Origin: Paenalcaligenes suwonensis
GTDB taxonomy: Bacteria > Pseudomonadota > Gammaproteobacteria > Burkholderiales > Burkholderiaceae_B
Direction: 5' to 3'
DNA length: 64,000 nucleotides
NCBI RefSeq assembly: GCF_011290505.1
Contig: NZ_JAANPV010000003.1
Span: 124,001 to 188,000 of the forward strand
Every line of letters starts with the position of its first letter. Within the stretch, counting starts at the first letter, position 1. Under the pieces are notes generated by a model. That model saw nothing but the letters and a program-made list of their open reading frames with translations. It did not search any database and was not told the origin of the DNA. Below are positions 43,420-64,000 of this stretch, piece by piece. The translations under genes and the position numbers were made by a program.

Positions 43420-43425
43420 AGCAGC

Positions 43426-43848
43426 TTAGCGACGCCAACCGCTATGCAGTTGCGCCTGGATCATATCCAACTCGGTTTCATGACAACGCTGTAACCGCTG
43501 CCAGCGCTCTTCACTCATGTCGTCGCTACGCGTAGCCATCATCACCAGCACACACGACTGCTCAGCTACGGCTTGCACCCATGCACTGATACGTGGGCTG
43601 CGCTTTTCTGCACCACCCACCCAATAACGTAGTAAGCCCTGCTCTGGCAGCACCTCCACGCTGACGTGGGTTTGCCCGCCATCAAAGAGAGACGTGCCCA
43701 CCACTACGCCATCCGCTACCGGTTTAGTATCAAAGCACCCTAACGACCACTGACCTAATAACTGCAAGTCAGCCATAAAAGCCATTACTTCAGAGGCTGG
43801 TTTTTCTATACGGCGACTGGCTTGGTGTGCCCATGTTTTTTCCATTAT
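43426..43848 (-). CDS. SRPBCC family protein
   Basis: A 140-residue START/polyketide-cyclase-like protein (SRRIEKPASEVMAFMADLQLLGQWS, then GVVVGTSLFDGGQTHVSVEVLPEQGLLRYWVGG). The fold binds hydrophobic or aromatic ligands; the function here is unknown. The ATG at 43848 follows CAGGGA. An in-frame ATG at 43860 overlaps the stop of the upstream aminotransferase (TAATG), so the two are coupled. It is the third gene of the transporter-aminotransferase operon. Confidence 0.75.
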   Translation of the reverse strand: MMEKTWAHQASRRIEKPASEVMAFMADLQLLGQWSLGCFDTKPVADGVVVGTSLFDGGQTHVSVEVLPEQGLLRYWVGGAEKRSPRISAWVQAVAEQSCVLVMMATRSDDMSEERWQRLQRCHETELDMIQAQLHSGWRR

Positions 43849-43859
43849 TGATCCCTGCA

Positions 43860-47525: not shown

Positions 47526-48356
47526 ATGAATACCTCTACTTCCCATATTGATCTGAATGGACGTGAGTCCATATATCAACCTACACAATCAGGTTTGATT
47601 TACCCTGAGGTCCCCACCTTCTCTTCTTTCGCAGAAGAGCGTCAATACCGTAAGGAACGCCTTGTTGCTGCCTGTAGAACATTTGCATTACATGGCTTTG
47701 ACTATGGTTTTGCTGGACACCTTACTGTACGTGACCCTGAGCATCCAGAGCTATATTGGACCAATCCAATGTGTGTACATTTTTCACAAGTACGCATATC
47801 CAACCTCATTCTTGCCGACCATAGCGGTAAAGTAATTGAGGGAGATTATGCTCTTAACCGTGCCGGTTTCGTCCTGCACTCTGCCGTACATGAACGACAC
47901 CCTGATATTGTGGCTATGTGTCATGCCCATACCGAATACGGCACGGCCTTTGCATCATTAGGTAAACCCCTAGCCCCCATTAGCCAAGATGCTGCCGCTT
48001 TCTTTGAGGACCATGTAGTAATCCGTAATGAGGCAGGTCAAGTCGCGGTTGAGGAAAAAGCAGGCTGGTCCGTTGCAGATTATTTCAAAGACGTCAAAGC
48101 AGCTATTCATCAAAACCACGGTTTATTAACTGCCAGTCGTCACAGCATTGACTCAGCAGCTTTCTGGTTTATTGCTTTAGAGCGCTGCTGCAAACAGCAG
48201 CTTGCAATAGAAGCTACTGGCCAACCCCCTCTTCTTGTCCCCCCAGAAAAAGCACGCTATAGCCGTGAGCATGTTGGCAGCGAATACATAGGTTGGCTGC
48301 ACTTCCAAGCACTATACGAACACGTTGCTGCAACACAGCCAGAAATGTTTGAGTAA
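47526..48356 (+). CDS. Class II aldolase/adducin family protein
   Basis: A 276-residue protein. The zinc-binding histidines appear in VAMCHAHTEYGTAF (about 138-151) and in IHQNHGLLTASRHSID (about 197-212), the usual His triad of class II aldolases. The N-terminal part resembles the subgroup annotated as adducin-like hydrolases or aldolases of short hydroxy acids. A good AGGAG site precedes the ATG. A TRAP transporter follows, so the protein probably acts on an imported organic or sugar acid. Substrate unknown. Confidence 0.88.
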   Translation: MNTSTSHIDLNGRESIYQPTQSGLIYPEVPTFSSFAEERQYRKERLVAACRTFALHGFDYGFAGHLTVRDPEHPELYWTNPMCVHFSQVRISNLILADHSGKVIEGDYALNRAGFVLHSAVHERHPDIVAMCHAHTEYGTAFASLGKPLAPISQDAAAFFEDHVVIRNEAGQVAVEEKAGWSVADYFKDVKAAIHQNHGLLTASRHSIDSAAFWFIALERCCKQQLAIEATGQPPLLVPPEKARYSREHVGSEYIGWLHFQALYEHVAATQPEMFE

Positions 48357-48358
48357 CG

Positions 48359-48400
48359 AAAAGAGCCCGATCAGAGCGCTAAGATCGGGCTCTTATTCCC
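48359..48400 (+). terminator. Hairpin after the class II aldolase gene
   Basis: AAGAGCCCGATC and GATCGGGCTCTT are perfect 12-base arms around a 10-base loop. The T-tract is short (TTATT), so it may attenuate rather than end transcription into dctQ. Confidence 0.65.
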
Positions 48401-48484
48401 CTCGCAAACATCTCGCCACACCAGCTGGTAAAAACCCCTCAACAATAGTTATAAATTCAGAGGGGTTAAGAAAAAGGAGACACG

Positions 48485-49027
48485 ATGAAAAGACTGAGCG
48501 ACCTCTGGTTTTCTCTCTTAAAAATTACCGCCATCACCTGTTTGGTTTTGATGGTCATCCTTGTATTTGGCAACGTAGTTCTTCGCTACCTATTCAACTC
48601 TGGCATCACCTTCTCGGAAGAAGCTTCACGCCTTTTGTTTATTTACATCACCTTTCTTGGGGCTGCCATAGCATTACGTGAACACCTTCACTTAGGGATT
48701 GATTCTGTGGTGTCACGCCTTAACCCTAAACAACGTCGAACCTGTTTAGTACTTTCTCAACTTCTAATGCTTTATGTCACTTGGTTATTACTCATCGGTA
48801 GTTGGGAACAAGCCAGCATAAATCTGGCCACACTAACCCCCGTTATCGGCCTTTCAATGGCAGCAGTCTATGGCGTTGGCGTGCTATTTAGCGTTACCAC
48901 TGGAGGCTTATTACTCTGTAGTCTGATTCGCTCGCTTACAGGAAAAATGGATGACCGTGAGGTCAGCCTTGCGGTTGGAACCCTTCCTCCTGAGCAGAAC
49001 CCCCTCCCTCCTTCCACTCCAGCATAG
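48485..49027 (+). CDS. dctQ: TRAP transporter small permease (DctQ)
   Basis: A 180-residue protein with four membrane helices. It has the DctQ pattern FGNVVLRYLFNSGITFSEEASRLLFIYITFLGAAIALREHLHLGID (about 28-72, one conserved domain) and a hydrophilic proline-rich tail. AAGGAG precedes the start. It is the small membrane subunit of a sodium-driven tripartite transporter whose other two genes follow. Confidence 0.92.
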   Translation: MKRLSDLWFSLLKITAITCLVLMVILVFGNVVLRYLFNSGITFSEEASRLLFIYITFLGAAIALREHLHLGIDSVVSRLNPKQRRTCLVLSQLLMLYVTWLLLIGSWEQASINLATLTPVIGLSMAAVYGVGVLFSVTTGGLLLCSLIRSLTGKMDDREVSLAVGTLPPEQNPLPPSTPA

Positions 49028-49035
49028 GAAGTCTC

Positions 49036-50316
49036 ATGGTTATTACAATCTTCCTAAGCTCATTACTAGCATCAATGGCGATAGGCATTCCCATTGCCTA
49101 CGCTCTACTTCTATCCGGCATAGCGCTAATGGCGCATTTGGATCTTTTTGATGCACAAATCATTGCTCAAAACCTCATTAATGGAGCCAACAGCTTTGCC
49201 CTAATGGCTGTTCCCTTTTTCTTGCTCGCCGGTGAAATCATGAACACCGGAGGGTTATCAAGAAGAATCGTTAATATTGCTATGGCGCTTTTAGGCCACA
49301 TCAAAGGAGGCTTAGGCTATGTAGCTATTTTGGCTGGATGCTTAATTGCCGCCCTATCAGGCTCTGCTGTAGCTGATGCAGCAGCCCTCTCAGCCTTGTT
49401 GTTACCCATGATGGTAAAAGCTGGCTACGACAAAAGCACCTCTGCTGGGCTCATTGCAGCCTCAGGCTGCATTGCTCCCATCATCCCTCCCTCTATTGGC
49501 TTTATCGTATTCGGAGTCGCTGGTGGGCTTTCCATTACCAAACTTTTTCTAGCAGGCATCGTACCAGGCATCCTCATTGGCCTTGGCCTAGCATTCGCAT
49601 GGTGGCTGAAAATCCGTAACTCAAGCATGATAATGCCGCCAAAACGCTCACGTGCCGAGCTACGTTCGGCATTAGCCGATGGTATATGGGCAATGATGTT
49701 GCCTGTAATTATCATCGTAGGACTACGTTTCGGTGTTTTCACACCCACTGAAGCCGCTGTAGTTGCTGTGGTGTACTCCTTGTTCGTATCCATCTGCGTT
49801 TACAAGGAGATGTCATTACATGATCTTTATGAGGTACTAAACAGCACGATTAAAACAAGTGCCATCGTCATGTTCTTAATTGCCTCGGCTTTAGTATCTG
49901 CATGGATGATCACAATTGCCGATATCCCCGGAAGCCTAATCAGCCTACTTGAGCCCTTCATGGATCACCCCCTACTCTTGACTGCCGTCATCATCGGTTT
50001 AGTGATTGTGGTAGGCACATCTATGGACATGATCCCAGTCATTCTGATCCTAACCCCTGTATTGCTCCCTGTCGTGAAAGAAGCAGGAGTAGACCCAATT
50101 TATTTTGGTGTTTTATTTATAGTCGCCTGCTCTATCAGCTTGATTACACCGCCAGTAGGCTCTGTTTTAACAGTTGTAAGAGGTGTGGCAAAGATAGGTA
50201 TGGATGACATGTTAAAAGGCGTTTTCCCTTTCATTCTGGCTCAGCTAACCATTTTATTACTCATGATTATTTTCCCTTGGTTAGTAACCGTTCCCGCTCA
50301 ATGGTTTACGGGCTAA
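49036..50316 (+). CDS. dctM: TRAP transporter large permease (DctM)
   Basis: A 426-residue, about 12-helix permease. It has AVPFFLLAGEIMNTGGLSRRI, GCLIAALSGSAVADAAALSALLLPMM and CIAPIIPPSIGFIVFGV, then ILTPVLLPVVKEAGVDPIYFG and SLITPPVGSVL, the DctM family motifs. It couples substrate uptake to a sodium gradient and starts 8 bases after dctQ. Confidence 0.94.
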   Translation: MVITIFLSSLLASMAIGIPIAYALLLSGIALMAHLDLFDAQIIAQNLINGANSFALMAVPFFLLAGEIMNTGGLSRRIVNIAMALLGHIKGGLGYVAILAGCLIAALSGSAVADAAALSALLLPMMVKAGYDKSTSAGLIAASGCIAPIIPPSIGFIVFGVAGGLSITKLFLAGIVPGILIGLGLAFAWWLKIRNSSMIMPPKRSRAELRSALADGIWAMMLPVIIIVGLRFGVFTPTEAAVVAVVYSLFVSICVYKEMSLHDLYEVLNSTIKTSAIVMFLIASALVSAWMITIADIPGSLISLLEPFMDHPLLLTAVIIGLVIVVGTSMDMIPVILILTPVLLPVVKEAGVDPIYFGVLFIVACSISLITPPVGSVLTVVRGVAKIGMDDMLKGVFPFILAQLTILLLMIIFPWLVTVPAQWFTG

Positions 50317-50363
50317 TCATTTTACTTTTCATCTCACACTTACAATAAATTTCGGAGTTGACA

Positions 50364-51380
50364 ATGAAATCCTCAATCAAAAAATCACTGCTATCCTTAG
50401 CTCTACCAGTGATGATGGCCTGTTCCCCCCAAGTCTTAGCTAATGACATACAAGAAAGAACTTTTAGATTTTCTTTTGTACAACCCATTGAAAGTCACAT
50501 GGGTTATGGTGCTCAGAAATTTGCTGAGCTAGTTAAAGAAAAAAGCGATGGAAAAATGACCGTTAGACTATTTCCTAACGGCACTTTGGGGGGCGACTTG
50601 CAAACAGTCTCATCACTCCAAGGAGGCACATTAGATATTACTACCATGCCTCCTGGCTTACTGGTTGGTCTAGATGCCAAATACAGTATTTTTGATTTAC
50701 CTTTCCTCTTTCAAGACTCAACTGAAGCAGATGCTGTCTTAGATGGCCCTGTAGGCAATAAGTACCTAGAAGCGTTGCCAACGGGCTTAGTTGGCCTAGG
50801 CTACTGGGATCACGGCTTTCGCAACATCTCCAACAGCAAACACCCTGTCAATAAGCTAGAAGACTTAAAAGGATTAAAAATTCGGGTGCTAGAAACACCT
50901 TTAGTACTGGATTCCTTCTCAGCCCTAGGCACAAATGCCGTTCCAATGGCATTTACCGAACTCTACACAGCGATGGAAACTGGTGCTGTAGACGGCCAAG
51001 ATAATCCGGTGGTCGCTTTTGAAACCAATAAATTTGACGAAGTACAAAAACATTTGGCTCTGACCCGCCATATTTACAATCCTCTGATTCTGCTCTTTAG
51101 TGAGCGAACTTGGAACAAACTTTCAGACGCTGAGCGCCAGGTTTTGATGGATGCTGCACGTGATTCTAAAGACGAGCAACGTAGAGTTTCTCGTGAAATG
51201 GAAGCCAAAGCACTCACTACCATTCAAGCAAATGGCACTCAGGTTACCTCCATTTCCCCAGACGAAATCAACAGAATGCGTGAGGCAACACAAACCATCA
51301 CCGACAAATACACTCCTCAAATCGGATCAGAGGCAGTGACAGAGATAATGACCGAAATCACCAAAATTCGCAGTAAATAA
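50364..51380 (+). CDS. dctP: TRAP transporter substrate-binding protein (DctP)
   Basis: A 338-residue periplasmic binding protein. A signal peptide of about 27 residues ends in QVLA-ND; a MMAC sequence inside it is a poor lipobox. The mature part has GYGAQKFAELVKEKSDGKMTVRLFPNGTLGGD, FRNISNSKHPVNKLEDLKGLKIRVLETP with the conserved substrate-carboxylate Arg, and DGQDNPV. I use the ATG at 50364 after CGGAG rather than the TTG at 50358. Base composition is low: I count 21 and 22 G+C in the 60-base lines from 50461 and 50521. Confidence 0.92.
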   Translation: MKSSIKKSLLSLALPVMMACSPQVLANDIQERTFRFSFVQPIESHMGYGAQKFAELVKEKSDGKMTVRLFPNGTLGGDLQTVSSLQGGTLDITTMPPGLLVGLDAKYSIFDLPFLFQDSTEADAVLDGPVGNKYLEALPTGLVGLGYWDHGFRNISNSKHPVNKLEDLKGLKIRVLETPLVLDSFSALGTNAVPMAFTELYTAMETGAVDGQDNPVVAFETNKFDEVQKHLALTRHIYNPLILLFSERTWNKLSDAERQVLMDAARDSKDEQRRVSREMEAKALTTIQANGTQVTSISPDEINRMREATQTITDKYTPQIGSEAVTEIMTEITKIRSK

Positions 51381-51602: not shown

Positions 51603-52358
51603 ATGAAAACCTACCGCATCGGACAAGTCGTTCCTAGTTCTAACACCACCATGGAAACCGAAATTCCAGCGATGCTGCAAGCGCGCTATGCTGAGTTTCC
51701 TGATGAGCGCTTTACCTTCCATTCATCGCGTATGCGCATGATGAAAGTAACGCCCGAAGAACTCAAAGCCATGGACATTGCTAGCGACCGCTGCGTGCTA
51801 GAACTTAGCGATGCCCGCATGGATGTAATGGCCTACGCATGCTTGGTTGCCATCATGGCGCAAGGCGACGGTTACCACCGCGTATCCCAAGAGCGTCTGC
51901 AAAAAGTCGTTACCGACAACGGCGTGGATATTCCTGTGCTCAGTTCCGCTGGCGCCTTGGTTGAAACATTGAAAGAGTTCAACTTCAATAAGGTATCCAT
52001 TATCACGCCTTACATGAAACCTCTAACGCAGCGCGTAGCCGATTACATCCGCGCCGAAGGGGTTGAAGTGCTGGATACCATCAGCCTAGAAGTAGCCGAT
52101 AACTTGGAAGTTGGCCTACTAAACCCAGAGAACCTGCTGGAACACGTTAAACGCTTGGATTACAAAGACGCAGATGCCGTCGTGCTGTCCGCTTGCGTAC
52201 AAATGCCATCGCTAGCAGCTATTCAGCGCGCCCAAGACATGATTGGCAAACCCGTGTTGTCAGCCGCCGTATGTACGGTTTACCAAATGCTGAAAACGCT
52301 GGGCTTAGAAACTCGCGTACCTAACGCAGGCCACATTTTGTCTGGCGTTAAACCGTAA
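51603..52358 (+). CDS. nicE: Maleate cis-trans isomerase
   Basis: A 251-residue Asp/Glu racemase-fold enzyme that converts maleate to fumarate, the last step of nicotinate degradation. The two catalytic cysteines expected for maleate isomerases are visible as Cys80 (AYACLVA) and Cys198 (LSACVQMPS), and the N-terminal GQVVPSSNTTMETEIP is the substrate-binding start. GAGG precedes the ATG. It is separated from nicD-nicX-nicF by a regulator and the hydroxylase genes. Confidence 0.93.
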   Translation: MKTYRIGQVVPSSNTTMETEIPAMLQARYAEFPDERFTFHSSRMRMMKVTPEELKAMDIASDRCVLELSDARMDVMAYACLVAIMAQGDGYHRVSQERLQKVVTDNGVDIPVLSSAGALVETLKEFNFNKVSIITPYMKPLTQRVADYIRAEGVEVLDTISLEVADNLEVGLLNPENLLEHVKRLDYKDADAVVLSACVQMPSLAAIQRAQDMIGKPVLSAAVCTVYQMLKTLGLETRVPNAGHILSGVKP

Positions 52359-52389
52359 CTTCCAACACTGAATACGGCGAAAAAACGCT

Positions 52390-53292
52390 ATGATGTCATG
52401 CATGAAACTGGACTTGCTGACATTAAAGCTATTCGTTCGTGTTTTAGAGGAAGGGACCATCAGTAAGGCGGCAGAACTTGAGCACATCGCTAGTGCAGCC
52501 GTCAGCCGCCGCCTTGCTGACCTAGAGCATCATCTAGACACCCCTCTGCTTTATCGCACCAACAAAGGTATTAGCCCCACCCCTGCCGGGGTAGAGCTGT
52601 TATACCGTGCGCGTGCATTATTAAATAATGCCTATGATTTAGAAACCCGCCTACACGCTTACGCCAAAGGCCAGCATGGCCAAGTACACATCATGGCGAA
52701 CACCTCGGCGGTGACGCAGTTTTTACCTGCTGTACTCGGGCAGTTTGCTCAGCAGTTTCCGCAAGTGCAGTTGCAGCTAGAAGAAAAAAACAGCTTGGAT
52801 ATTATCAATGCACTGTCTGAAGGCAAAACTGAACTAGGCATTTTCACTCGCCTACCTTTTCAAGCCAGCATCGAAACCTTCACCTTTAGGCATGATGAGC
52901 TGGTCGTACTAGTGCCGCAATCGCACCCGCTAGCCCAGTACACTGAAATAGACTTCATCCAAACACTGGATTACGCCCATATTTCGCTGTTCGCAGGCAC
53001 GCACATCCATTATCAGATCAGCAAAATTGCGATGGAACACAACCGTGCGTTATCCATTCAAACTGAAGTATCGGGCTACGATGCCATGTGTTTACTGATT
53101 AACGCAGGCATAGGTATTGGGATTTTGCCGCGTGAAAGTACGCAGATTTACCATATACCCAATACTCGCACCATTGCCCTACGCGATGCGTGGCGCTCGC
53201 GCGAACTACTGGTGGGGGTGCGTAAGCAAAGCGAACTATCACCCAGCGCGGCTAGTCTACTCGCCTTACTCTTGGCCGAAGCACCTAAGTAA
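52390..53292 (+). CDS. LysR-family transcriptional regulator of the nic cluster
   Basis: A 300-residue LysR protein. The DNA-binding helix is at about 5-65 (LKLFVRVLEEGTISKAAELE, AVSRRLADLEHHLDTPLL) and the effector domain follows from about 92. It starts 31 bases after nicE on the same strand. The true start may be the Met at 52402 (MKLDLL). Its place suggests control of nicE or the catabolic genes. In Pseudomonas the nic genes are controlled by MarR- and TetR-type repressors, so a LysR regulator would be a different scheme. Confidence 0.88.
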   Translation: MMSCMKLDLLTLKLFVRVLEEGTISKAAELEHIASAAVSRRLADLEHHLDTPLLYRTNKGISPTPAGVELLYRARALLNNAYDLETRLHAYAKGQHGQVHIMANTSAVTQFLPAVLGQFAQQFPQVQLQLEEKNSLDIINALSEGKTELGIFTRLPFQASIETFTFRHDELVVLVPQSHPLAQYTEIDFIQTLDYAHISLFAGTHIHYQISKIAMEHNRALSIQTEVSGYDAMCLLINAGIGIGILPRESTQIYHIPNTRTIALRDAWRSRELLVGVRKQSELSPSAASLLALLLAEAPK

Positions 53293-53314
53293 ACACCCAG
53301 CTCGTGACTAGCGT

Positions 53315-53923
53315 TTAACGTGGCCGGTATAGGCCAAAAAGTGTGTCGTCGGTGATTTCGTAATAGTCTTTAGGACCACCACCACGCAATACCGGGTGCG
53401 CCGAAGCACAGTGATACACCCCATCGCGTATATGCTCAGTAGCAATGTGTACGCCCACTACTTCGCCAAACACCATCCACGCCCCTGCCCCCTTACCATC
53501 GCTACCAGTAAGTTCAAAGTGCTGCGACACTCTACACTCTAACGACACCGGACTTTCTGACACATAGGGTGCAGTCACTTTATCGCCCATACATGGCGTA
53601 AGCCCCGTGAAGGCAAACTCATCCACGGGCTGTTCTATGCTGCTTAGGTTCACTTGCTCGGCCAGTGCTCTAGTAGCCAGATTCCACGTAAACACACCTG
53701 TACTGATTGCATTACGCGCACTGTCTTTGTAGCCCACGCTGGAAAAACCAATAATGGGTGGCCGGTAGTTAAACATCGTACAGAAGCTATAAGGTGCTAA
53801 ATTCAGTACCCCATCGGTAGACTGCGTACCAATCCAACCAATCACCCGTGGCCCCACTATAGCGCTCATAGGATCGTGCTTTAGCCCATGCCCTTGGCTA
53901 GGCTCATAAAAATGCGTAGTCAT
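53315..53923 (-). CDS. Flavin reductase-like / FMN-binding split-barrel protein
   Basis: A 202-residue flavin-reductase-domain protein. It has RVIGWIGTQSTDGVLNLAPYSFCTMFNYRPPIIGFSSVGYKDSARN (about 26-71, the FMN-binding domain), then TGVFTWNLAT. Such proteins supply reduced FMN to two-component monooxygenases or bind FMN themselves. Its place in a pyridine pathway suggests it could serve a ring hydroxylase, but no oxygenase component lies in the window. It is the most distal gene of the minus-strand arm of the nic cluster. Confidence 0.8.
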   Translation of the reverse strand: MTTHFYEPSQGHGLKHDPMSAIVGPRVIGWIGTQSTDGVLNLAPYSFCTMFNYRPPIIGFSSVGYKDSARNAISTGVFTWNLATRALAEQVNLSSIEQPVDEFAFTGLTPCMGDKVTAPYVSESPVSLECRVSQHFELTGSDGKGAGAWMVFGEVVGVHIATEHIRDGVYHCASAHPVLRGGGPKDYYEITDDTLFGLYRPR

Positions 53924-54039
53924 TTGTACCTAACTTATGCCCTGTAGATAATGTTGCGCCCCGCTTAGCTACTCAGCATAGTAGCAAGATGCGCAGCAGT
54001 TGCGCACCTTGCACTACCAGCACCGTAGCCTTTAGCTGT

Positions 54040-56871
54040 TTACAAATGCCCAGGTTGCTGACGAATGTGCTGTACTTTTTCAGTGATGTTTTGCCATGGC
54101 TGCTTATCTGGCGCATATTGCCTGCGTAGATACTGCAGTAAGTCGGTGACCTGCTGATCATTCAAGCTATGCTTAAACGCTGGCATATTCCCCAACGCGG
54201 GCGCAGAGGGTCTAGTAATGCCATGCAAAATCACCTGAATCACATTATCTGGCGAATCACTGTGCAGCGAGGTATTCACCGCTAGCGATGGCCTAGCCCC
54301 AAACAACGCAGGCCCAGACTGGCTATCATGGCACACCATACACGCCCCCTCGTAAATGCTTCTACCCGGCATTAGCCACACATCTGTAGGCGGCATTTGC
54401 GCTTGCTGCTCCAACTGCTGGACCTGCGTAGCTGCCACTGCTGGCAAAGACGCTGCGGGGGCCGTGTCGGTACGCCCAGTCAAATTCAACAAGTAGTGCG
54501 ACATAGCCCTTACATCGTATTCGGGAAGCTCAGCCAAACCCTCAATAATAGGCCCCATCGGCCCAGCCGCCACACCGTGCTCCACAGATTGCCCGGTACG
54601 TAGATAGGTAAACAAAGCGTCTTCCGTCCATGGCACCTTGGCATTAGCCAATGCATTCAAGGCAGGGGCCTCCCAACCATCCACTTCACCGCCCGCCAAA
54701 AAGTATTTACCTTTTTTCTCGCCACCTAAGCTATTTCGCGGGGAATGACAGGCCATGCAATGTCCACTGCTATTAACCAAATAGGCACCACGATTCCACA
54801 ACTCCGTTTGCCCCTCGTCATACTGATACGCCTGTCTATCGGTATGAAATAACGCATTCCACCCCGCTAACGCCGGCCTAACGTTAAAAGGGAAACTCAG
54901 CTCGTGCTGCTTGTTGGGAGCGTGCACAGATTCTTGCGTCATTAAATACGCATACAGCGACTGCAAGTCTTCATCGCTAAGTTTGGCATACGAGGTATAC
55001 GGAAACGCCGGGTACAGATGCGAACCATCGCGGTGAATCCCATCGCGCATGGCACGCTCAAAAGCCTTATACGACCATGTACCTATACCTGTTTCAGGGT
55101 CGGGGGTGATGTTTGTGGTAAAGATTTTCCCAAAAGGGGTATCCAAGGCCAAACCACCTGCATTCGTTGGCTGTCCATCAGCGGTATGGCACACCATACA
55201 ATCACCCGCCAACGCGACCAAGCGCCCTCGCTCTATGGCTATATCCGAAAAAATAGACGTATCAATTCTAGGTACGGGGGGAATAGCAGGTCGCCACGGC
55301 GATGCCACCACCAACAAGCCCGCTGCCGCACTGGCTGCTCCCGCCAACCAACCCAACCATCTCTTAGAGGTCGTAGATTTGGCAGCCGCCTTGTTGTCTA
55401 AGGCCCATCGCTGCGAAGCAAGAGACAAATCTAACGGTGCGTGATGCAACCTAATCTGCGTTGCATCTTTAACGGCATTCGCAATTGCCGCAGCGGCAGG
55501 CAACTCTGCTGTTGTACTCCACGCCAACGCCTGCCCCACCACCGCACTTTGGTTGATCACCTGTATTTCAGTAGCAGGGGGTTCTGCTGCCTCTCGCGGC
55601 GTGGCAGTAGATGAGCCAGAAGCAGGCGGCGTTGCATTCCCCAATAATCGCTGCGTCCACTGCGAGATGCGATGTTTAATCTGCACTTGCTGCGATGCCT
55701 CTTGTGGCACATGCTGATCACTATCAAATGCCACCGTCACTTTTTGCAGGTTTAACTGCTGTGACTGCGTATCCACAGCCAGCTCTACCGCCCACGCTGA
55801 CCACACGGCTTGCGCCGGTTTCTGCTCGTAATCATAGGCTTTCACGTAAGCAAAACCATAACCGTGGTTTTGCTTCTGGGGCGTACAAGGCAGACCTTCT
55901 GCATCCACCCAACCCGCTTGTTCCGCGGCTCGCTGTATGAGGCGTCGCCCACGCTCATCATCGATTTTCGATAAGCGCTCTTGCAGGGGGTCTGCACCAC
56001 TGGCACGCAGGCTTTCATCAAACTCGGATTCAGCAGCAAACGTTAAGGCTGCCGCATAATTACGCTGCGCGCCCACAGGAGCCAACCATTCAGCTTGAGC
56101 ATATTCGCGCGCGCCTAGGTAGTCGGTTGCCACCTGCACACCATAGTCCGGTGAACCATGCCAGCCTAATAACCTCGCTGCTACCGAACAGCCTAAGCCC
56201 GGCACCACATTACTCTGCCAACTACCGTCTTGCTGATCACGCCAAACCAACTTGATGGTTTGCAAACCTGTTTCTGCCCGCACCACCACTGGCTGTGTGA
56301 CCTGTAGGGCCAACAGTGCCGCTTGTACCGCTTCGTCATAGGCTTCTGTTAACGCTTCCACGCACTGATAAAGATGTATGCGTTCAGCCGGTAACGCCGT
56401 TAAGGCTGCTAGTTCATCGCGTAATTGATGCGGAAAAGCAGTACTCACCCATACACGCAATTGTTCTTGCTCGTACTGTGCAACAGACCATGCCAAGTCG
56501 TTATCAACCGAGGCATCCCAGCTATAGCCAGAGGCCCTGTCATCGGCCGTAGTCGTAGCACGAGTGTCTACCCACTCTATCCGCACTAACGCCCTAGCTT
56601 GCTTGGCTGTACTTTCTTGAGAGGCAAGCACCGCCACGAAATTTTTTTGAGCCACACACTTCACTACACCGGGTACACGCTCAGCCGCCGACCAATCTAT
56701 GGCGCTGTAGAAATGCCCCTGCCCTGCTGTAAGAGGCTGTTGTAATAGCGACAGCGGAGGATACACCACCGCTGCATACAATGCGTATTGCAACGAGGGT
56801 AAAGCCACCGCTTCAGGCTCTGTGGTTAACGCGGAGTCGCCGTGCTGTACTACTGAATAGAGTGCCCGCAT
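54040..56871 (-). CDS. NicB-like protein: degenerate molybdopterin-binding domain fused to three-haem cytochrome c
   Basis: A 943-residue fusion. Residues about 20-480 align with the C-terminal two-thirds of xanthine-dehydrogenase-type molybdenum subunits, but lack the GCYGRNCADD motif and end in VVGQALAWSTTAELPAAAAIANAV, where GAGES with the catalytic Glu is expected. A membrane anchor (about 505-525) follows. Then come three cytochrome c domains with CMVCH at 558-562, CMACH at 705-709 and CMVCH at 844-848. In P. putida NicB one protein carries catalytic and cytochrome parts. Here this subunit probably passes electrons from NicA to the respiratory chain. The ATG at 56871 is one base past the nicA stop (TAGGATG); an ATG at 56895 is also in frame. 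Confidence 0.85.
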   Translation of the reverse strand: MRALYSVVQHGDSALTTEPEAVALPSLQYALYAAVVYPPLSLLQQPLTAGQGHFYSAIDWSAAERVPGVVKCVAQKNFVAVLASQESTAKQARALVRIEWVDTRATTTADDRASGYSWDASVDNDLAWSVAQYEQEQLRVWVSTAFPHQLRDELAALTALPAERIHLYQCVEALTEAYDEAVQAALLALQVTQPVVVRAETGLQTIKLVWRDQQDGSWQSNVVPGLGCSVAARLLGWHGSPDYGVQVATDYLGAREYAQAEWLAPVGAQRNYAAALTFAAESEFDESLRASGADPLQERLSKIDDERGRRLIQRAAEQAGWVDAEGLPCTPQKQNHGYGFAYVKAYDYEQKPAQAVWSAWAVELAVDTQSQQLNLQKVTVAFDSDQHVPQEASQQVQIKHRISQWTQRLLGNATPPASGSSTATPREAAEPPATEIQVINQSAVVGQALAWSTTAELPAAAAIANAVKDATQIRLHHAPLDLSLASQRWALDNKAAAKSTTSKRWLGWLAGAASAAAGLLVVASPWRPAIPPVPRIDTSIFSDIAIERGRLVALAGDCMVCHTADGQPTNAGGLALDTPFGKIFTTNITPDPETGIGTWSYKAFERAMRDGIHRDGSHLYPAFPYTSYAKLSDEDLQSLYAYLMTQESVHAPNKQHELSFPFNVRPALAGWNALFHTDRQAYQYDEGQTELWNRGAYLVNSSGHCMACHSPRNSLGGEKKGKYFLAGGEVDGWEAPALNALANAKVPWTEDALFTYLRTGQSVEHGVAAGPMGPIIEGLAELPEYDVRAMSHYLLNLTGRTDTAPAASLPAVAATQVQQLEQQAQMPPTDVWLMPGRSIYEGACMVCHDSQSGPALFGARPSLAVNTSLHSDSPDNVIQVILHGITRPSAPALGNMPAFKHSLNDQQVTDLLQYLRRQYAPDKQPWQNITEKVQHIRQQPGHL

Positions 56872-56872
56872 C

Positions 56873-57343
56873 CTACACCGCCTGAGCGGCTGCACGTGCT
56901 GCCGCTAAAATTTCCATATGCGTGCCACAACGACAAAGATTGTGACGCAACTCGTTGCGTATTTCTTCTTCCGTAGGGTGCGCATTGCGCAGTAATAGCG
57001 CTTGCACTGTCATGATCATGCCATTCATGCAGTAACCACACTGGGCAGCCTGATGATCAATAAACGCTTGTTGCACCTTGTTGGGCTCACCATCGGGCGC
57101 TAAACCCTCAAGTGTAGTAATGGCATAGTCTTTCACCGCTGCACACGTCACCACACAAGAGCGTGCCGCCACACCATCTACCAGCACCGTACAGGCCCCA
57201 CACTCACCTAAACCACAACCAAATTTTGGACTTTTAAAACCAAGATCATTACGCAATACGTATAGCAACGGTGTGTCAGGGCTGACCTGTACCTCCCGCT
57301 CTTGATTATTTACCCTTAACCGCATTGAAACCGGACTAGACAT
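56873..57343 (-). CDS. nicA: Nicotinate dehydrogenase small subunit, 2Fe-2S
   Basis: A 156-residue ferredoxin subunit of a molybdenum hydroxylase. The plant-type cluster ligands are Cys43, Cys48, Cys51 and Cys63; the second cluster uses Cys102, Cys105, Cys137 and Cys139 (QCGYC and CRC). It relays electrons from the molybdenum centre to the cytochrome subunit. The gene is directly upstream of the cytochrome fusion and divergent from the catalytic subunit. I start at the ATG 57343 (MSSPVS); a GTG two codons earlier is possible. There is no clear ribosome site. Confidence 0.93.
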   Translation of the reverse strand: MSSPVSMRLRVNNQEREVQVSPDTPLLYVLRNDLGFKSPKFGCGLGECGACTVLVDGVAARSCVVTCAAVKDYAITTLEGLAPDGEPNKVQQAFIDHQAAQCGYCMNGMIMTVQALLLRNAHPTEEEIRNELRHNLCRCGTHMEILAAARAAAQAV

Positions 57344-57564
57344 TCGCACACCAAAAAAGTCTATACGCTCTAAAAAAACCGTAAACTATAAAATTGCTTA
57401 AAATATAAACAATCTAGTGGCGCATGGATACTTAATGCAGATAAGGGTTTATACCTAAAATAATTTTTATAGACACCACAACCCAAAGTTTTCCCTATAA
57501 TCAATATCAAGCGTATACGCTCTAATTTACAGATATGAGCACAGTTTCAATTGTAGGATCCCTC
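57344..57564. promoter_or_regulatory. Divergent nic promoter region with two 16-bp operator-like repeats
   Basis: AGTCTATACGCTCTAA (57358-57373) and AGCGTATACGCTCTAA (57510-57525) match at 14 of 16 bases. The second includes the perfect palindrome AGCGTATACGCT. On the plus strand TATAAT at 57496-57501 precedes the second site by 8 bases. On the minus strand TTGTTT-16-TATAGT (promoter-like) ends just before the first site. Both sites therefore sit where a repressor would overlap the start of transcription. Confidence 0.65.
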
Positions 57565-59841
57565 ATGCTTGAGCACTCCCCTCGGCTTCTGCAGCAACAT
57601 CTACTCAACAGCCAAGATTGTTTGTTGATTTTGCGCGCGCCCAGCTTGCCGCCACAACCCGTTGCCGGCCAACCCGGAGTGATCTCAACGTACTTACAAG
57701 AGCACGACGATATTTTTGTCGCCATCACCTCTGAACACATTTATGCCTTTAACGGGCATGTGGATCTAGGCACCGGCATTCAAACAGCCCTAGGCCAAAT
57801 TGTGGCCGACGAGCTAGATATACAAACCACCCAACTACGCATGGTGCTAGGTCATACCGAGGCCTCGCCCAATCAAGGCCCTACTATTGCTAGCGCCTCT
57901 ATACAGATTTCGGCCATCCCCTTACGTAAAGCAGCAGCACAAGCTAAACAATTACTGCTGCAGCACCAAGCAACCGCTTGGCACGTAGATGCACAGCAAT
58001 TGCAGGTTAAAAATGGCCACATCCTAGGCCCCAATGGTTTGGAGGTGTCATATCAGGACGCCGTTAAAGGCATACAGCTACACGCCTATTTGGACATGGA
58101 TACCACCACCAAACCGCGCGAGCTGCTTACTATAGTCGGCACCTCATCACCGCGCGTGGATATCCCTAAAAAAGCAGTGGGTCAGTTTACCTACGTGCAT
58201 GACGTAGAAGTACCCAACATGTGGCACGCACGCGTTATACGTCCACCTTATGCCGGTCGGGACAGCGGTGACTTTATCGGCCATAGCCTGGTGTCTGTAG
58301 ACGCTACCTCGGTTCAACACATTAGCCCTACCATACAGGTCGTTGCTGAAGGTGACTTTGTAGCAGTGGTAGCAGAACGAGAAGAGCACGCCATTCAAGC
58401 TGCCCGCATGATAAAGGTGAACTGGCGCGATATTCCTGCCCTGCCCTCATTAGAGAACGTAAGCAGCGCACTAAAAGCGAATCCACAAACGGCTCGCCTC
58501 TTAAAAGACACCACCCACGAACATACAGACCCCGCCCCTACCGGCAGCATCACGCTTAGTAATGAGTACGTATGGCCATTTCAGTTGCATGCCTCTATTG
58601 GCCCTTCGTGTGCTGTGGCCGAATTTACCCCGCAACTGTCGCGCATTTGGTCTGGCACCCAAAACCCGCACATGCTGCGCACACAACTAGCCGAACTGTT
58701 TGAACTAGAAGAAGGCAGCATAGAAATTATCCGACACGAAGCGTCGGGCTGCTATGGCCGAAACTGTGCGGATGACGTGTGTGCAGATGCCTTGCTGATC
58801 TCTAAGCTCATCAACAAACCTGTACGTGTACAACTGAGCCGCGAACAAGAACACGCCTGGGAACCAAAGGGTGCTGCACAACTGATGCTCAATACGGCAT
58901 CCGTTAGCCCAGACGGCGAGCTACTGCATTATGGCTTCGCCACACACTACCCATCTAATGACGCACCCTTACTCGCTGCATTACTCATAGGGAAAACAGC
59001 CGCCAACCCGCGTACGCTACAAATGGGAGACCGCACTGCCGTCCCACCCTACCATTACCCTAGCCAACATATTGTGTGCAATGACATGCCACCTATTGTG
59101 CGGGCCTCGTGGCTGCGTGGCGTGTCTGCTCTCCCCAATAGTTTTGCGCATGACTGCATGGTGGACGAATTAGCGAGCGCCGTAGGCCACGATCAAGTCG
59201 CCTTTAGGCTGAAGCATTTGCATAACGACACCCGCGCTCAAGAACTATTGTCTAGCATTGCCGAGAAAGCCCAATGGGTACCCTTTGCACAAGGCTCACG
59301 CGGGCACGCCGATAACGACGGTTGGATGCACGGCCGTGGTGTGGCATACGCCCGCTACATACACAGTAAATTCCCCGGGTTTGGAGCAGCGTGGTCAGCA
59401 TGGGTACTAGACCTGAAGGTACATGCCACCAGCGGGAAAATTGTGATCAAACACATTGTAGTTGGGCAAGACACTGGGCAAATGGTGAACCCCGCCGGTG
59501 TACAGCATCAACTGCACGGCAACATTATTCAATCGCTTAGCCGCAGCCTATTTGAGTCAGTGCGCTTTGATGAAAAAGGTGTCACCACCTTGGAATGGGG
59601 CTCATACCCCATTCTGAAATTCACCGATTTACCACCCATAGACATTGTTCTGATGGATAGGCAAAACGATGACCCTTTAGGGGCTGGCGAATCTGGCTCA
59701 TTACCGTGCGCACCCGCTATCGCGAACGCACTTTTTGACGCTACCAATATACGTTTTTACGAGGCGCCTTTCACGGCACAGCGCGTCAGCCAGCGCCTGC
59801 AGTCATCACTTATAAATTCTAGAGGAGCAATTACGCAATGA
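57535..59841 (+). CDS. nicB: Nicotinate dehydrogenase catalytic molybdopterin subunit (NicB-like, without cytochrome part)
   Basis: A 768-residue molybdenum hydroxylase large subunit that would hydroxylate nicotinate at C6. It carries GHVDLGTGIQTALGQ at 74-88, GCYGRNCADD at 405-414, VRASWLRG in the second half, and GAGES at 716-720 with the expected catalytic Glu719. Unlike P. putida NicB it has no cytochrome domains; these are on the divergently encoded protein. The frame opens with ATG at 57535, 10 bases past the operator-like repeat, but the ATG at 57565 (MLEHSPR) has a better AGGA site. It overlaps nicD by 4 bases. Confidence 0.88.
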   Translation: MSTVSIVGSLMLEHSPRLLQQHLLNSQDCLLILRAPSLPPQPVAGQPGVISTYLQEHDDIFVAITSEHIYAFNGHVDLGTGIQTALGQIVADELDIQTTQLRMVLGHTEASPNQGPTIASASIQISAIPLRKAAAQAKQLLLQHQATAWHVDAQQLQVKNGHILGPNGLEVSYQDAVKGIQLHAYLDMDTTTKPRELLTIVGTSSPRVDIPKKAVGQFTYVHDVEVPNMWHARVIRPPYAGRDSGDFIGHSLVSVDATSVQHISPTIQVVAEGDFVAVVAEREEHAIQAARMIKVNWRDIPALPSLENVSSALKANPQTARLLKDTTHEHTDPAPTGSITLSNEYVWPFQLHASIGPSCAVAEFTPQLSRIWSGTQNPHMLRTQLAELFELEEGSIEIIRHEASGCYGRNCADDVCADALLISKLINKPVRVQLSREQEHAWEPKGAAQLMLNTASVSPDGELLHYGFATHYPSNDAPLLAALLIGKTAANPRTLQMGDRTAVPPYHYPSQHIVCNDMPPIVRASWLRGVSALPNSFAHDCMVDELASAVGHDQVAFRLKHLHNDTRAQELLSSIAEKAQWVPFAQGSRGHADNDGWMHGRGVAYARYIHSKFPGFGAAWSAWVLDLKVHATSGKIVIKHIVVGQDTGQMVNPAGVQHQLHGNIIQSLSRSLFESVRFDEKGVTTLEWGSYPILKFTDLPPIDIVLMDRQNDDPLGAGESGSLPCAPAIANALFDATNIRFYEAPFTAQRVSQRLQSSLINSRGAITQ

Positions 59842-60668
59842 GCACCTATCTCTATGGCGGCAACGTGCACGCCAACGGCATACGTCAACACTACTTACGC
59901 TACGGCAACCCCAGCGATGCCGCACAACAGCAGCGTGAAGCCATCATTATTATTCCCGGCATTACCAGCCCAGCCGTAACCTGGGGGTTTGTCGCCGAGC
60001 GTTTTGGCCAATACTTTGACACCTACGTACTAGACGTGCGCGGTCGTGGCTTAAGCTCTGCCGAAGACGGCCTAGACTACGGCCTTACAGCCCAAGCCGA
60101 GGATGTGATCGCTTTTGCTAACGCGCTAGGGCTGAAAAAATACAGCCTAGTAGGACACTCTATGGGTGGGCGCATTGGCGCACGCGCTGCTGCGCTTCAT
60201 CCCGATGCTGTCACACGCTTGGTCATGGTAGACCCCCCCGTATCCGGGCCAGACCGTCGCCCATACCCCGCCAAACTACCATGGTATGTAGATTCCATGG
60301 CAATGGCCCGCAAAGGCTGCAACGCTGATGACATGCGCGCCTTCTGCCCCACATGGACAGAAGAGCAGTTGCAATTGCGTGCCCAGTGGCTGCACACCTG
60401 CAACGAAAGCGCCATCATCCAAAGTTTTAACGACTTCCAAAACGATGACGTACACGCCAACTTTGCTGCACTAACCTTGCCCACCATGCTGATGATTGCA
60501 GAGCGCGGCGATGTTGTACGCCCCGAGGACGCCGAGGAAATCCAAGGCCTGATCAAAAACCTAACCATTAGCCACGTTGCTAACGCAGGCCACATGATTC
60601 CTTGGGACAACGAGGAAGGCTTTTACCAAGCCTTTGGTGACTTCTTGGGTACCGCCCTTAACCCTTAA
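59838..60668 (+). CDS. nicD: N-formylmaleamate deformylase
   Basis: A 276-residue alpha/beta hydrolase that splits N-formylmaleamate into maleamate and formate. The nucleophile elbow GHSMGG places Ser108, an acid lies in ERGDVVRPEDAEE, and His is in NAGHMIPWDN near 250. The start overlaps the end of the hydroxylase gene (ATGA). Family assignment rests on overall similarity plus its place directly before nicX and nicF. Confidence 0.92.
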   Translation: MSTYLYGGNVHANGIRQHYLRYGNPSDAAQQQREAIIIIPGITSPAVTWGFVAERFGQYFDTYVLDVRGRGLSSAEDGLDYGLTAQAEDVIAFANALGLKKYSLVGHSMGGRIGARAAALHPDAVTRLVMVDPPVSGPDRRPYPAKLPWYVDSMAMARKGCNADDMRAFCPTWTEEQLQLRAQWLHTCNESAIIQSFNDFQNDDVHANFAALTLPTMLMIAERGDVVRPEDAEEIQGLIKNLTISHVANAGHMIPWDNEEGFYQAFGDFLGTALNP

Positions 60669-60680
60669 CAGAGACTCAAC

Positions 60681-61727
60681 ATGGCCGTAAGTGATTACCA
60701 ACTGATTAATGCTTGGCTAGAAGTCTTAACGCTATCCAAGCTAGAGAAAAACCAAGTCGTTACGATTTTGACCAGTAACTCCACCAACGAACAAACCATG
60801 CGGTGCGCCACCATTGCTGCACAGTTGAAAGGCGCAATTGTGAACCGCCTTGATTTGCCACCAGTCAATGCTGAAAAAGCGCTGAGCCGAGATTCGTTGT
60901 CGTACTTGGGCACAACGCCCATTACCAACAACCCTGCTGCCATCGCCAACCTTAAAGCCAGCGACTTGGTGCTGGATTTGATGACGCTGTTGTTCTCTCC
61001 CGAGCAAGGCGAAATTCTAGAGGCTGGCACCAAAATCTTGTTGGCGGTGGAACCGCCTGAGATTTTGGTACGTACCGTACCTAGCGCTCAAGACCGCACC
61101 CGCGTGCTCAAAGCTGCTAAGTTGATTGAACAAGCCAAATCCATGCGCGTTACCTCGCCCGGCGGCACAAACTTGTACTGCCCTATTGGCGACTTCCCTG
61201 CGATTAGCGAATACGGCTTTGTGGACGAACCCGGTCGTTGGGACCACTGGCCTAGCGGTTTCGTGCTGACCTGGCCTAATGAAGGTGGCGCCTCAGGCAC
61301 CATCGTGATCGACAAAGGCGACATTCTGCTACCACAGAAAAGATACGCCACTGAAGCCATTACGCTAACGGTAGAAAACGGCTATGCCACCAAAATCGAA
61401 GGTGGCATAGATGCTGAGCTATTGCATGAATACATGCTTAGCTTTAACGACCCCGAAGGCTTTGCTATTTCGCACATAGGCTGGGGGCTACAGCCTCGCG
61501 CCCACTGGTCTACGCTAGATCTGTACGACAAAGAGCAAACCATAGGCATGGATGCCCGTGCGTTTGAGGGTAACTTCTTGTTCTCATTAGGCCCTAATAA
61601 TGAAGCAGGCGGTGACCGCACAACGGCCTGCCACATTGATATACCTTTGCGTCGCTGCGATGTTTACCTAGACGACCTTTGTGTAGTCAAAGCCGGCAAA
61701 GTACAAGACGGAGAATCCCATGAGTAG
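60681..61727 (+). CDS. nicX: 2,5-dihydroxypyridine 5,6-dioxygenase
   Basis: A 348-residue iron-dependent extradiol-type dioxygenase that opens 2,5-dihydroxypyridine to N-formylmaleamate. The three iron ligands known for P. putida NicX (His265, His318, Asp320) are present at exactly those positions (AISHIGW and ACHID). It starts 12 bases after nicD and overlaps nicF by 8 bases. Confidence 0.95.
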   Translation: MAVSDYQLINAWLEVLTLSKLEKNQVVTILTSNSTNEQTMRCATIAAQLKGAIVNRLDLPPVNAEKALSRDSLSYLGTTPITNNPAAIANLKASDLVLDLMTLLFSPEQGEILEAGTKILLAVEPPEILVRTVPSAQDRTRVLKAAKLIEQAKSMRVTSPGGTNLYCPIGDFPAISEYGFVDEPGRWDHWPSGFVLTWPNEGGASGTIVIDKGDILLPQKRYATEAITLTVENGYATKIEGGIDAELLHEYMLSFNDPEGFAISHIGWGLQPRAHWSTLDLYDKEQTIGMDARAFEGNFLFSLGPNNEAGGDRTTACHIDIPLRRCDVYLDDLCVVKAGKVQDGESHE

Positions 61728-62334
61728 TAATGATGTATACGCCAAACAAGGCTTTGGTGCCACGCTAGAACCTGTAGCACCTTTTGGTTTATTGATTATC
61801 GACTTAGTAAACGGCTTTGCTGACCCCGAGGTATTTGGTGGCGGGAATATCCCTCAAGCCATCGAAAAAACCCAAGAGCTGTTAGCCATTGCACGCGAGA
61901 AAAACTGGCCAGTTGCCCACACTCGTATCGTGTTTGCTGACGATCAATCTGACAACAACATCTTCAGCATCAAAGTACCCAGTATGTTGACCTTGTTAGA
62001 AGATGCCGAGATCAGCCATATTGTTCCTGAGCTTACGCCCGTAGCCGGTGAGTTAGTCGTACGCAAAACCGTACCCTCTGCCTTCTTTGGCACATCACTG
62101 GCCGCATGGCTAACCCAACGCGGCGTGCAAACCCTGGTCGTTGCTGGTGCGGTTACCAGCGGTTGCGTACGCGCTTCGGTAGTCGATGCGATGCAGTTAG
62201 GCTTTAGACCCTTGGTGGTATCAGATTGCGTAGGCGACCGCGCCATTGATCCGCACAACGCCAATCTGTTCGACATGAAGCAGAAATACGCTTACGTGGC
62301 TACCTTAGAAGAAACCAAAGCCTTGCTGGATTAA
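61720..62334 (+). CDS. nicF: Maleamate amidohydrolase
   Basis: A 204-residue isochorismatase-like amidase that converts maleamate to maleate and ammonia. The catalytic triad is visible as Asp28 (LLIIDLVNGF), Lys116 (VVRKTVPSAF) and Cys149 (AVTSGCVRAS). It overlaps nicX by 8 bases and ends the plus-strand operon with a strong terminator 25 bases on. Its product is used by NicE, encoded at the other end of the cluster. Confidence 0.95.
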   Translation: MSSNDVYAKQGFGATLEPVAPFGLLIIDLVNGFADPEVFGGGNIPQAIEKTQELLAIAREKNWPVAHTRIVFADDQSDNNIFSIKVPSMLTLLEDAEISHIVPELTPVAGELVVRKTVPSAFFGTSLAAWLTQRGVQTLVVAGAVTSGCVRASVVDAMQLGFRPLVVSDCVGDRAIDPHNANLFDMKQKYAYVATLEETKALLD

Positions 62335-63446: not shown

Positions 63447-64000
63447 TTAACGGTTCACCACTTTCGCAGGAAAGACTAGCGCTAACAAACCACTACCCAC
63501 CAAACACACCGAGAAGAACCACAGTGCTGCATGGCTAGTACCGGTTAGGTCAGTCGCCACACCAATTAAGGAGTTACTGACTAGACCAGCGATATTTGCC
63601 AACGAACACGCCAGTGCAAACCCGGTTGCGGCAGCGGTACCTTTAAGGAAGGTTGCAGGCACACTAAAGAATACCGGCACAGCCCCTAACAACACACCCG
63701 ATGCAATAGTAAACATCAGCACCGTTAAGATCAGGTTGTCGGCCACAAAGGTACTGGTTGCCAAGGCAGCCGCCCCCACCAACAACGGAATACATAAGTG
63801 CCAGCGTCGCTCACGATGACGGTCTGAACTTGCACCAATCGCCAGCATACCAATCACCCCAGCAATGCTAGGAATGGCCGACAACAAGCCAATATGGAAG
63901 GTATCCACCACTCCGGTGTTACGAATGAAAGTGGGCATCCAGAAGCCAATCGCATAGGCCCCTAACAAAATAGAGAAGTCGATGGCACCCAGCATCCAAA
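63447..64000 (-). CDS. MFS transporter, C-terminal part (cut by window edge)
   Basis: The visible 184 residues form about six membrane helices. WMLGAIDFSILLGAYAIGFW is followed by ASSDRHRERRWHLCIP, the central loop motif of the anion:cation symporter (ACS) family. The frame is open at the right edge, so the N-terminal half is missing. ACS members import organic anions, and nicotinate clusters usually include one (NicT), so a role in nicotinate or hydroxynicotinate uptake is a fair inference from location. Confidence 0.8.
   Translation of the reverse strand, partial: WMLGAIDFSILLGAYAIGFWMPTFIRNTGVVDTFHIGLLSAIPSIAGVIGMLAIGASSDRHRERRWHLCIPLLVGAAALATSTFVADNLILTVLMFTIASGVLLGAVPVFFSVPATFLKGTAAATGFALACSLANIAGLVSNSLIGVATDLTGTSHAALWFFSVCLVGSGLLALVFPAKVVNR

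Follow-up and report, generated by a model that had tools for sequence, protein, structure and literature searches.

A predicted three-subunit nicotinate hydroxylase with an intact molybdenum subunit and a pocketless molybdopterin half on its cytochrome chain

Introduction

Why would a nicotinate hydroxylase locus encode two molybdopterin-type chains, one of which is complete by itself? The question is raised by the window, by which we mean the whole stretch of 64,000 nucleotides of Paenalcaligenes suwonensis analysed here (positions 124,001 to 188,000 of contig NZ_JAANPV010000003.1, from a genome of 3.54 Mb in 28 contigs). Within it, nicA (56873–57349, minus strand) sits between nicB2, which encodes a protein of 943 residues (54040–56871, minus strand), and nicB1, which encodes a protein of 768 residues (57535–59841, plus strand). 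The initial annotation of the locus had these coordinates and lengths right and proposed a duplication followed by division of labour, with NicB1 as the catalytic subunit and NicB2 as a scaffold tethering it, together with NicA, to the cytochrome and the membrane.

According to passages of PMC10269826, NicA and NicB of the P. putida type form a two-component enzyme and the nicotinate hydroxylase of Burkholderia gladioli and Bordetella is tripartite (NicA, NicB1 and NicB2); a part of PMC4572682 lists nicB2, nicA and nicB1 in Delftia, with the order nicD-nicX-nicF and nicB1 after nicF. The window has the same three genes, with matching domains and inside a nic cluster, and is assigned on this basis to the tripartite form. 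This form is already known in print and the window is a further member of it, such that the novelty of the split is lower than first thought, the same split occurring in many relatives and being named in those passages of PMC10269826. The initial annotation had itself stated that such a finding would lower the novelty. Neither a degenerate molybdopterin half nor an absent twin-arginine translocation (Tat) signal is mentioned in the passages of PMC10269826 and PMC4572682 considered here. Titles and abstract openings yielded no earlier description of site loss in NicB2 or of Tat loss in nicotinate hydroxylases, although an earlier mention is possible, since what is probably the fullest Bordetella account (Brickman and Armstrong 2018) lay outside that search. 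What seems to be new, in that we did not find it in print, is the loss of motifs from NicB2 with a retained and selected core, and the loss of the Tat signal from NicB1 and fused NicB.

Results and discussion

NicB1 carries a complete molybdenum site

NicB1, in which MoCoBD_2 and MoCoBD_1 both score above the Pfam cut-off, contains the motifs GHVDLGTG (residues 74–81), GCYGRN (405–410) and GAGES (716–720, with Glu719), and its sequence has no CxxCH haem motif, as originally described. Its domain order is permuted: a first piece of MoCoBD_2 is followed by a weak hammerhead match, MoCoBD_1 and a second piece of MoCoBD_2, so that MoCoBD_2 is split with one piece first and the remainder last, a point that had been overlooked. 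NicB1 is collinear with 8gy3_C (E-value 2.8e-36). With MoCoBD domains over the cut-off and the catalytic Glu in GAGE, it is assigned to the xanthine-dehydrogenase family and is predicted to be the sole subunit able to hold the molybdenum (Mo) cofactor and hydroxylate nicotinate. The [2Fe-2S] subunit NicA (158 residues), with Fer2 and Fer2_2 above the Pfam cut-off, probably starts at the ATG at 57343.

The nicotinate dehydrogenase of Eubacterium barkeri (3hrd) likewise belongs to the xanthine-dehydrogenase family, hydroxylates nicotinate and has its Mo part on two chains, which we take to form one working site jointly. In the window, by contrast, a complete Mo chain stands beside a broken copy, and we rejected complementation of NicB1 by NicB2 in the manner of NdhL and NdhM of 3hrd because NicB1 is complete by itself.

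NicB2 joins a pseudo-molybdopterin half to a three-haem cytochrome

The 943 residues of NicB2 are counted from an ATG, and a GTG 24 bases upstream would make 951. Residues 1–505 (55357–56871) form a pseudo-Mo half, followed by a hydrophobic stretch (residues 506–523; 55303–55356) behind a K/R-rich segment, which we read as an internal signal anchor with the N-terminus inside and the C-terminus outside, and by a cytochrome domain (54040–55302), all on the minus strand. CxxCH motifs at residues 558, 705 and 844 (55186–55200, 54745–54759 and 54328–54342), together with domain-wide similarity to 8gy3_A (E-value 2.6e-100), identify the latter as a predicted three-haem cytochrome c of the AdhB/8gy3_A type; the three motifs and the membrane anchor had been recognized at the outset.

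The Mo half alone reaches no Mo-domain cut-off (17.1 bits to MoCoBD_1 compared with a cut-off of 27). In a profile–profile comparison, however, a 46-row NicB2 profile of residues 1–505 aligns with residues 228–760 of NicB1 over 490 columns (probability 100, E-value 7.2e-85). Compared with PDB chain sequences, the Mo-half profile finds PaoC (1.4e-28) and 8gy3_C (2.5e-28) as its best matches, and at an E-value of 0.01 individual rows match MoCoBD_1 in 20 of 46 cases and MoCoBD_2 in 13 of 46. By these comparisons the N-terminal half of NicB2 is homologous to the catalytic subunit of the xanthine-dehydrogenase family. Because the profile alignment begins at residue 228 of NicB1, the absence of the first ~200 residues, which the initial annotation had noted, is real, and since the order of NicB1 is permuted like that of 8gy3_C, the missing part corresponds to the first MoCoBD_2 piece of the circularly permuted chain.

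Local decay or an assembly error as the origin of the 943-residue protein was rejected, given its presence in close relatives and in 45 of the best 80 named loci and its maintenance by selection. In a locus of the same genus (L057, genome G119), nicB2 consists of two overlapping frames that switch at an A-run (8128–8336); we do not regard this as gene fission, because a switch at such a run may be a sequencing error, the alternative being a real frameshift.

The pocket of NicB2 is lost while the core of the fold is retained

In the alignment of the family itself, none of five pocket motifs (GHVDLGTG, IASASIQ, GCYGRN, WLRGVS and GAGES) is kept in any of the 38 NicB2 rows; the same five are kept in all 26 NicB1 and all 3 fused NicB rows, with conservative changes (GSGES, WMRGVS, IASATIQ). 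GCYGRN and the GAGES glutamate are indeed missing from the 943-residue protein, as the initial annotation had noted.

A second, wider alignment comprised 32 NicB2, 32 NicB1 and 22 fused NicB rows. The first MoCoBD_2 piece (residues 1–205 of NicB1) is filled to 1–6% in the NicB2 rows, depending on the lineage group. As reference positions we used the 112 sites after residue 205 that are invariant across all NicB1 and fused NicB rows. Fifty-one of these, including C406, Y407, N410, R523, W526 and S720, survive in no more than 3 of the 32 NicB2 rows, 49 show intermediate retention, and 12 (A419, F537, E545, D553, W581, G600, G602, W623, A732, A736, R740 and P745) are kept in at least 29. Because 51 positions are lost and 12 are nearly fixed, we conclude that the pocket is gone whereas the core of the fold is retained; some single positions reported for lineage groups were chosen partly for looking conserved, but the count over 112 positions is free of that choice. 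Remnants of the pocket region do speak against so clean a loss, with D646 kept in 21, G648 in 15 and R409 in 8 of the 32 rows. A glutamate occupies the E719 column in 4 of 32 rows, none of them within a GAGES context. The N-terminal half of NicB2 thus lacks both the pocket motifs of its family and a catalytic Glu in the GAGES context, and NicB2 should not be annotated as a catalytic nicotinate dehydrogenase subunit.

The erosion is graded across lineages. Halomonas-type NicB2 retains GLGRHCGDDAAVDAAL, a remnant of GCYGRNCADDVCADAL, which the lineage of the window lacks, and the Mo half has shrunk to about 370–405 residues in Burkholderia, Pandoraea and some Paraburkholderia. The MoCoBD_2b part is more than 90% filled in all four NicB2 lineage groups.

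The pseudo-molybdopterin half is under relaxed purifying selection

Ratios of non-synonymous to synonymous divergence (dN/dS) were obtained by a Nei-Gojobori count for 17 pairs of relatives, which share members and are not independent. The ratio of the pseudo-Mo half exceeds that of the cytochrome half in all 16 pairs with computable dS. Among the pairs whose dS is below 1 (12 of the 17), it ranges from 0.07 to 0.24 in the Mo half of NicB2, from 0.02 to 0.09 in the cytochrome and from 0.04 to 0.12 in NicB1, the last range excluding a value of 0.235 (L134–L149) that stems from an over-extended NicB1 frame; in one pair (L040–L042) the Mo half and NicB1 have the same ratio, 0.071. Between the window and L037, where dS is saturated or nearly so, the corresponding ratios of proportions (pN/pS) are 0.35 for the Mo half, 0.20 for the cytochrome and 0.24 for NicB1. 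The pseudo-Mo half is clearly under purifying selection, relaxed but unlike the pattern of a pseudogene.

Such relaxation could also be expected if the pseudo-Mo half were an evolutionary leftover that serves only as a spacer or helps to insert the anchor, with NicB1 and NicA reaching the cytochrome without it. This would be in keeping with a dN/dS roughly four times as high as in the cytochrome half, with the shrinkage to about 370–405 residues in the genera named above and with free-subunit systems that have no pseudo-Mo half, but it sits poorly with dN/dS values of at most 0.24 in the 12 unsaturated pairs, with the 12 of 112 invariant positions that 29 or more of the 32 rows retain and with a MoCoBD_2b part that is more than 90% filled in each of the four groups, and we consider it unlikely. 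A new role of the half, either in binding a ligand (sensing of nicotinate or 6-hydroxynicotinate) or in maturation (insertion of the cofactor into NicB1), would be compatible with a conserved fold and an emptied pocket; however, no new conserved pocket motif stands out among the columns that are invariant in the NicB2 alignment, as far as the sequence can tell, which makes this explanation highly unlikely. Rather, we lean towards docking of NicB1 and NicA by the pseudo-Mo half, with a confidence somewhat above even. Two observations count against docking: six Burkholderia-type NicB2 rows mostly lack the hammerhead as well (23% filled), which suggests that much of the Mo half is dispensable, and the free-subunit nicotinate-type loci do without a pseudo-Mo half altogether.

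NicB2 occurs together with a separate NicB1

A NicB1-like match at an E-value of 1e-120 is present in 50 of the 151 family genomes that were sampled. Read by eye among the matches listed, 40 of the 151 genomes have NicB2 and a separate NicB1, and NicB1 is present in all 40 genomes read as having NicB2. The other 10 matching genomes comprise 5 with fused NicB, 3 with a free Mo subunit and a free cytochrome, and 2 with paralogues only (below 40% identity). The boundary between NicB2 and its paralogues was set by eye (weakest accepted match about 1e-87; strongest excluded 1.6e-82, in a genome without NicB1), and the 40 include three genomes with partial nicB1 or nicB2, in part at contig ends (G092, G098 and G124).

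The best 80 of 577 confirmed relatives, at named loci, divide into 45 tripartite, 23 fused and 12 unassigned. Tripartite loci occur in Alcaligenaceae, Burkholderiaceae, Comamonadaceae, Herbaspirillum, Halomonas, Vreelandella, Cobetia and Endozoicomonas (one, L141, being cut at the locus end and another, L132, having a frame with two CxxCH only), and fused ones in Paraburkholderia, one Burkholderia, Bradyrhizobium and Afipia. Those unassigned (L076, L085, L091, L094, L100, L101, L103, L104, L110, L112, L113 and L128) lie at contig or locus ends or have no NicB2 nearby, although L091 and L103 do show a match to the Mo half of NicB2. The split of NicB is thus ordinary in these groups. Three genomes of the family (G017, G091 and G011) have a free-type system with a Tat signal (L217, L218 and L219) in addition to a tripartite one, possibly for a different substrate.

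NicB2 most likely derives from a fused chain

From which form did NicB2 arise? In a Mo tree of 55 of the 98 Mo rows, the 12 NicB2 N-terminal halves (NicB2-N) form one clade (100/100), which the best tree places within the nicotinate group. In a cytochrome tree of 46 rows, the C-terminal part (NicB2-C) groups with that of the fused chains (95/88), and three free nicotinate-type cytochromes lie outside. Derivation of NicB2 from a fused Mo-cytochrome ancestor is therefore most likely, on the strength of the cytochrome tree, and the simplest reading of the order would be that free subunits gave rise to a fused chain, which then lost its Mo function beside a separate Mo subunit.

Several features of the trees tell against this history. 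The cytochrome tree does not unite NicB2-C in a single clade (4 changes), the branches of NicB2-N are very long, with the tree program flagging a meeting of long branches, and the placement of NicB2-N with respect to fused NicB and NicB1 varies without rejection by the approximately unbiased (AU) test (p 0.07–0.39 for four alternatives). Neither a position outside the catalytic nicotinate domains (p 0.34, or 0.21 without the free subunits) nor a union with NicB1 (p 0.39) or with fused NicB (p 0.07) is rejected. Because the branching of the Mo half of NicB2 is ambiguous to this extent, the duplication that the initial annotation placed at the start is not demonstrated as such; the division of labour, which it placed second, holds up in the loss of motifs, the co-occurrence and the selection, and a division of catalysis between NicB1 and NicB2 is very probable.

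The Tat signal of free subunits is absent from NicB1 and fused NicB

Among free-type and paralogous Mo subunits, a numeric rule finds a Tat signal in 9 of 12 scored rows; rows lacking the start motif (4 of 16 free or paralogous, 1 of 22 fused) were left unscored. The three that fail are the paralogues L194 and L195, which have no signal, and L203, which nevertheless reads LSRRNFLKAGGVLLV. By eye, (S/T)RRxFL is present in all of six further free-type nicotinate-like loci (L214 and L215 being alike), which brings the free nicotinate-type subunits with a signal seen by eye to 9 of 9 (L203–L205 and L214–L219). The same numeric rule finds no Tat-like signal in 32 NicB1 or 21 scored fused NicB rows, and the matches in NicB2 (1 of 32) and NicA (3 of 135) are read as internal or as lying in over-extended frames.

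The N-termini of NicB1 and fused NicB often keep the Tat spacing without the uncharged core, as in RTRKDFLESAGVLLVVRE or SMRRELLARDGCLVVVRQ. In a shuffle test such relics reach p 0.05 in 29 of 53 NicB1 and fused rows, which are related and thus not independent counts, compared with 1–6 of 53 for five internal control stretches. In the window, the N-terminal stretch of NicB1 placed where free-subunit relatives have their Tat signal (57583–57642, plus strand) stays below significance (p 0.216). Lys and Arg are more frequent before the anchor than after it in 28 of 32 NicB2 and all 22 fused NicB rows, and c-type haems are attached in the periplasm. The absence of Tat signals, the relics, the K/R bias and the periplasmic attachment of haem together point to a Mo half inside and haems outside, with Tat lost after fusion, and we regard a cytoplasmic location of the Mo part of NicB2 and NicB1 as probable.

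A difficulty for this topology is that, with a cytoplasmic Mo half and periplasmic haems, no route for electrons across the membrane is visible, although mediation by quinone is conceivable. No such jump would be needed if the whole complex were periplasmic, like that of the free-subunit relatives, and had left the cytoplasm by an unseen route, with the [2Fe-2S] clusters beside the haems and the Mo half of NicB2 as an ordinary subunit contact. We consider this decidedly unlikely, since Tat-like signals are absent from the 32 NicB1 and 21 scored fused rows and those in NicB2 (1/32) and NicA (3/135) are discounted as above, and since an N-terminal Mo domain ahead of an internal anchor with K/R on its N-side should remain inside. 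For the cytoplasmic topology we put forward, tentatively and as somewhat less probable than its negation, a wider scenario: fusion of the Mo subunit upstream of the signal anchor of the cytochrome would have moved hydroxylation from the periplasm, the site of the Tat-exported free subunits, to the cytoplasm, leaving a fossil Tat signal on NicB and NicB1; the anchored copy of the tripartite form, then without catalysis, would be a cytoplasmic receptor of single origin for the soluble Mo subunit, with electrons passing from cytoplasmic Fe-S clusters to periplasmic haems.

A pseudo-protomer may dock the catalytic pair at the membrane

We suggest that the locus probably encodes a three-subunit nicotinate 6-hydroxylase, in which NicB1 would hydroxylate nicotinate at C6 and pass the electrons to the [2Fe-2S] clusters of NicA. 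The retired Mo half of NicB2, as a pseudo-protomer, would tether the NicB1–NicA pair to the membrane, probably at the place occupied in fused NicB by the covalently linked Mo domain, and the three haems of NicB2 would hand the electrons onward. NicB2 itself most likely descends from such a fused NicB, in which the Mo half would have become non-functional after a separate Mo subunit was available.

Compared with the single-chain NicB of P. putida, whose domain layout we give as we understand it, the window has the [2Fe-2S] subunit, Mo domain, anchor and three-haem cytochrome in common. The fused NicB relatives are at least 1171 residues long, some of their frames being over-extended, and have three CxxCH. 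In the window, however, the catalytic Mo domain has a chain to itself, and the Mo domain attached to the cytochrome has no site; with no CxxCH in NicB1 and a siteless cytochrome chain, the locus falls outside the P. putida NicAB type, in which Mo and cytochrome share one chain. The 8gy3 aldehyde dehydrogenase and the free three-subunit Mo hydroxylases resemble it in that NicB1 is similar to 8gy3_C and the NicB2 cytochrome to 8gy3_A, but in free-type loci the cytochrome is encoded by its own gene without a Mo-like half and, unlike in the window, most Mo subunits have a Tat signal. A part of the review PMC10331938 describes an enzyme from Yang et al. with subunits of 21, 82 and 46 kDa, the last labelled a flavoprotein. 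By our reading rather than the review's, these sizes match the free type, in which the cytochrome has 442–443 residues (L204/L205); if that enzyme is of the free type, neither fusion nor a pseudo-Mo half is required to hydroxylate nicotinate, and the importance of the half must lie in location or assembly.

If the proposal is correct, free subunits, the fused chain and the fused chain with a pseudo-subunit beside a separate working copy would form a graded series and a testable example of complementary loss between domains. The membrane side of nicotinate hydroxylation in these bacteria would be settled as well, and one would then have to ask how electrons get to the haems opposite. A Mo half that is retired yet selected, and what is likely a fossil export signal, make the system worth following up.

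The nic cluster and its divergent gap

The locus is a nicotinate-catabolism cluster: homologues of nicE, nicB2, nicA, nicB1, nicD, nicX and nicF lie within 51603–62334, together with genes for a LysR regulator and a flavin reductase. The names nicD, nicX and nicF, and in part the functions, are those we take the pathway to have. Homologues of these three directly follow nicB1 (59838–62334, plus strand), giving the strand layout nicA-nicB2 on minus and nicB1-nicD-nicX-nicF on plus, and nicE, a maleate isomerase homologue, lies at 51603–52358 (plus strand). The nicX frame has no match in the Pfam scan of the window's proteins. Naming follows the nicotinate pathway in parts of PMC10269826 and PMC4572682; in the latter nicB1 of Delftia comes after nicF, whereas in the window it is divergent from nicA-nicB2 and ahead of nicD-nicX-nicF.

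The divergent gap between nicA and nicB1 (57350–57534) contains two copies of TATACGCTCTAA, at 57362–57373 and 57514–57525, one near each start, and these are the only exact copies in the 3.54 Mb genome. The sequence was chosen after reading the gap; its reversed pattern, as a control, has 0 copies in the genome. A palindrome, AGCGTATACGCT (57510–57521), overlaps the second copy, and its frequency in the window with 2 mismatches allowed is not above chance. We regard the TATACGCTCTAA pair as a candidate operator pair.

The cluster continues beyond the end of the window with a major facilitator superfamily transporter and a flavin adenine dinucleotide (FAD) monooxygenase. The former, complete at 437 residues, spans the window end, its 3' part being 63447–64000; the latter, of 383 residues and a candidate for nicC, lies ~0.8 kb past it (L220, G000:C4:186500-191500). 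On the other side, just before nicE, a class II aldolase gene precedes a transporter operon that encodes a DctP-type binding protein (47526–51380), and a class V aminotransferase/kynureninase-like gene (370 residues, minus strand) lies near a cupin helix-turn-helix regulator at 42889–44972.

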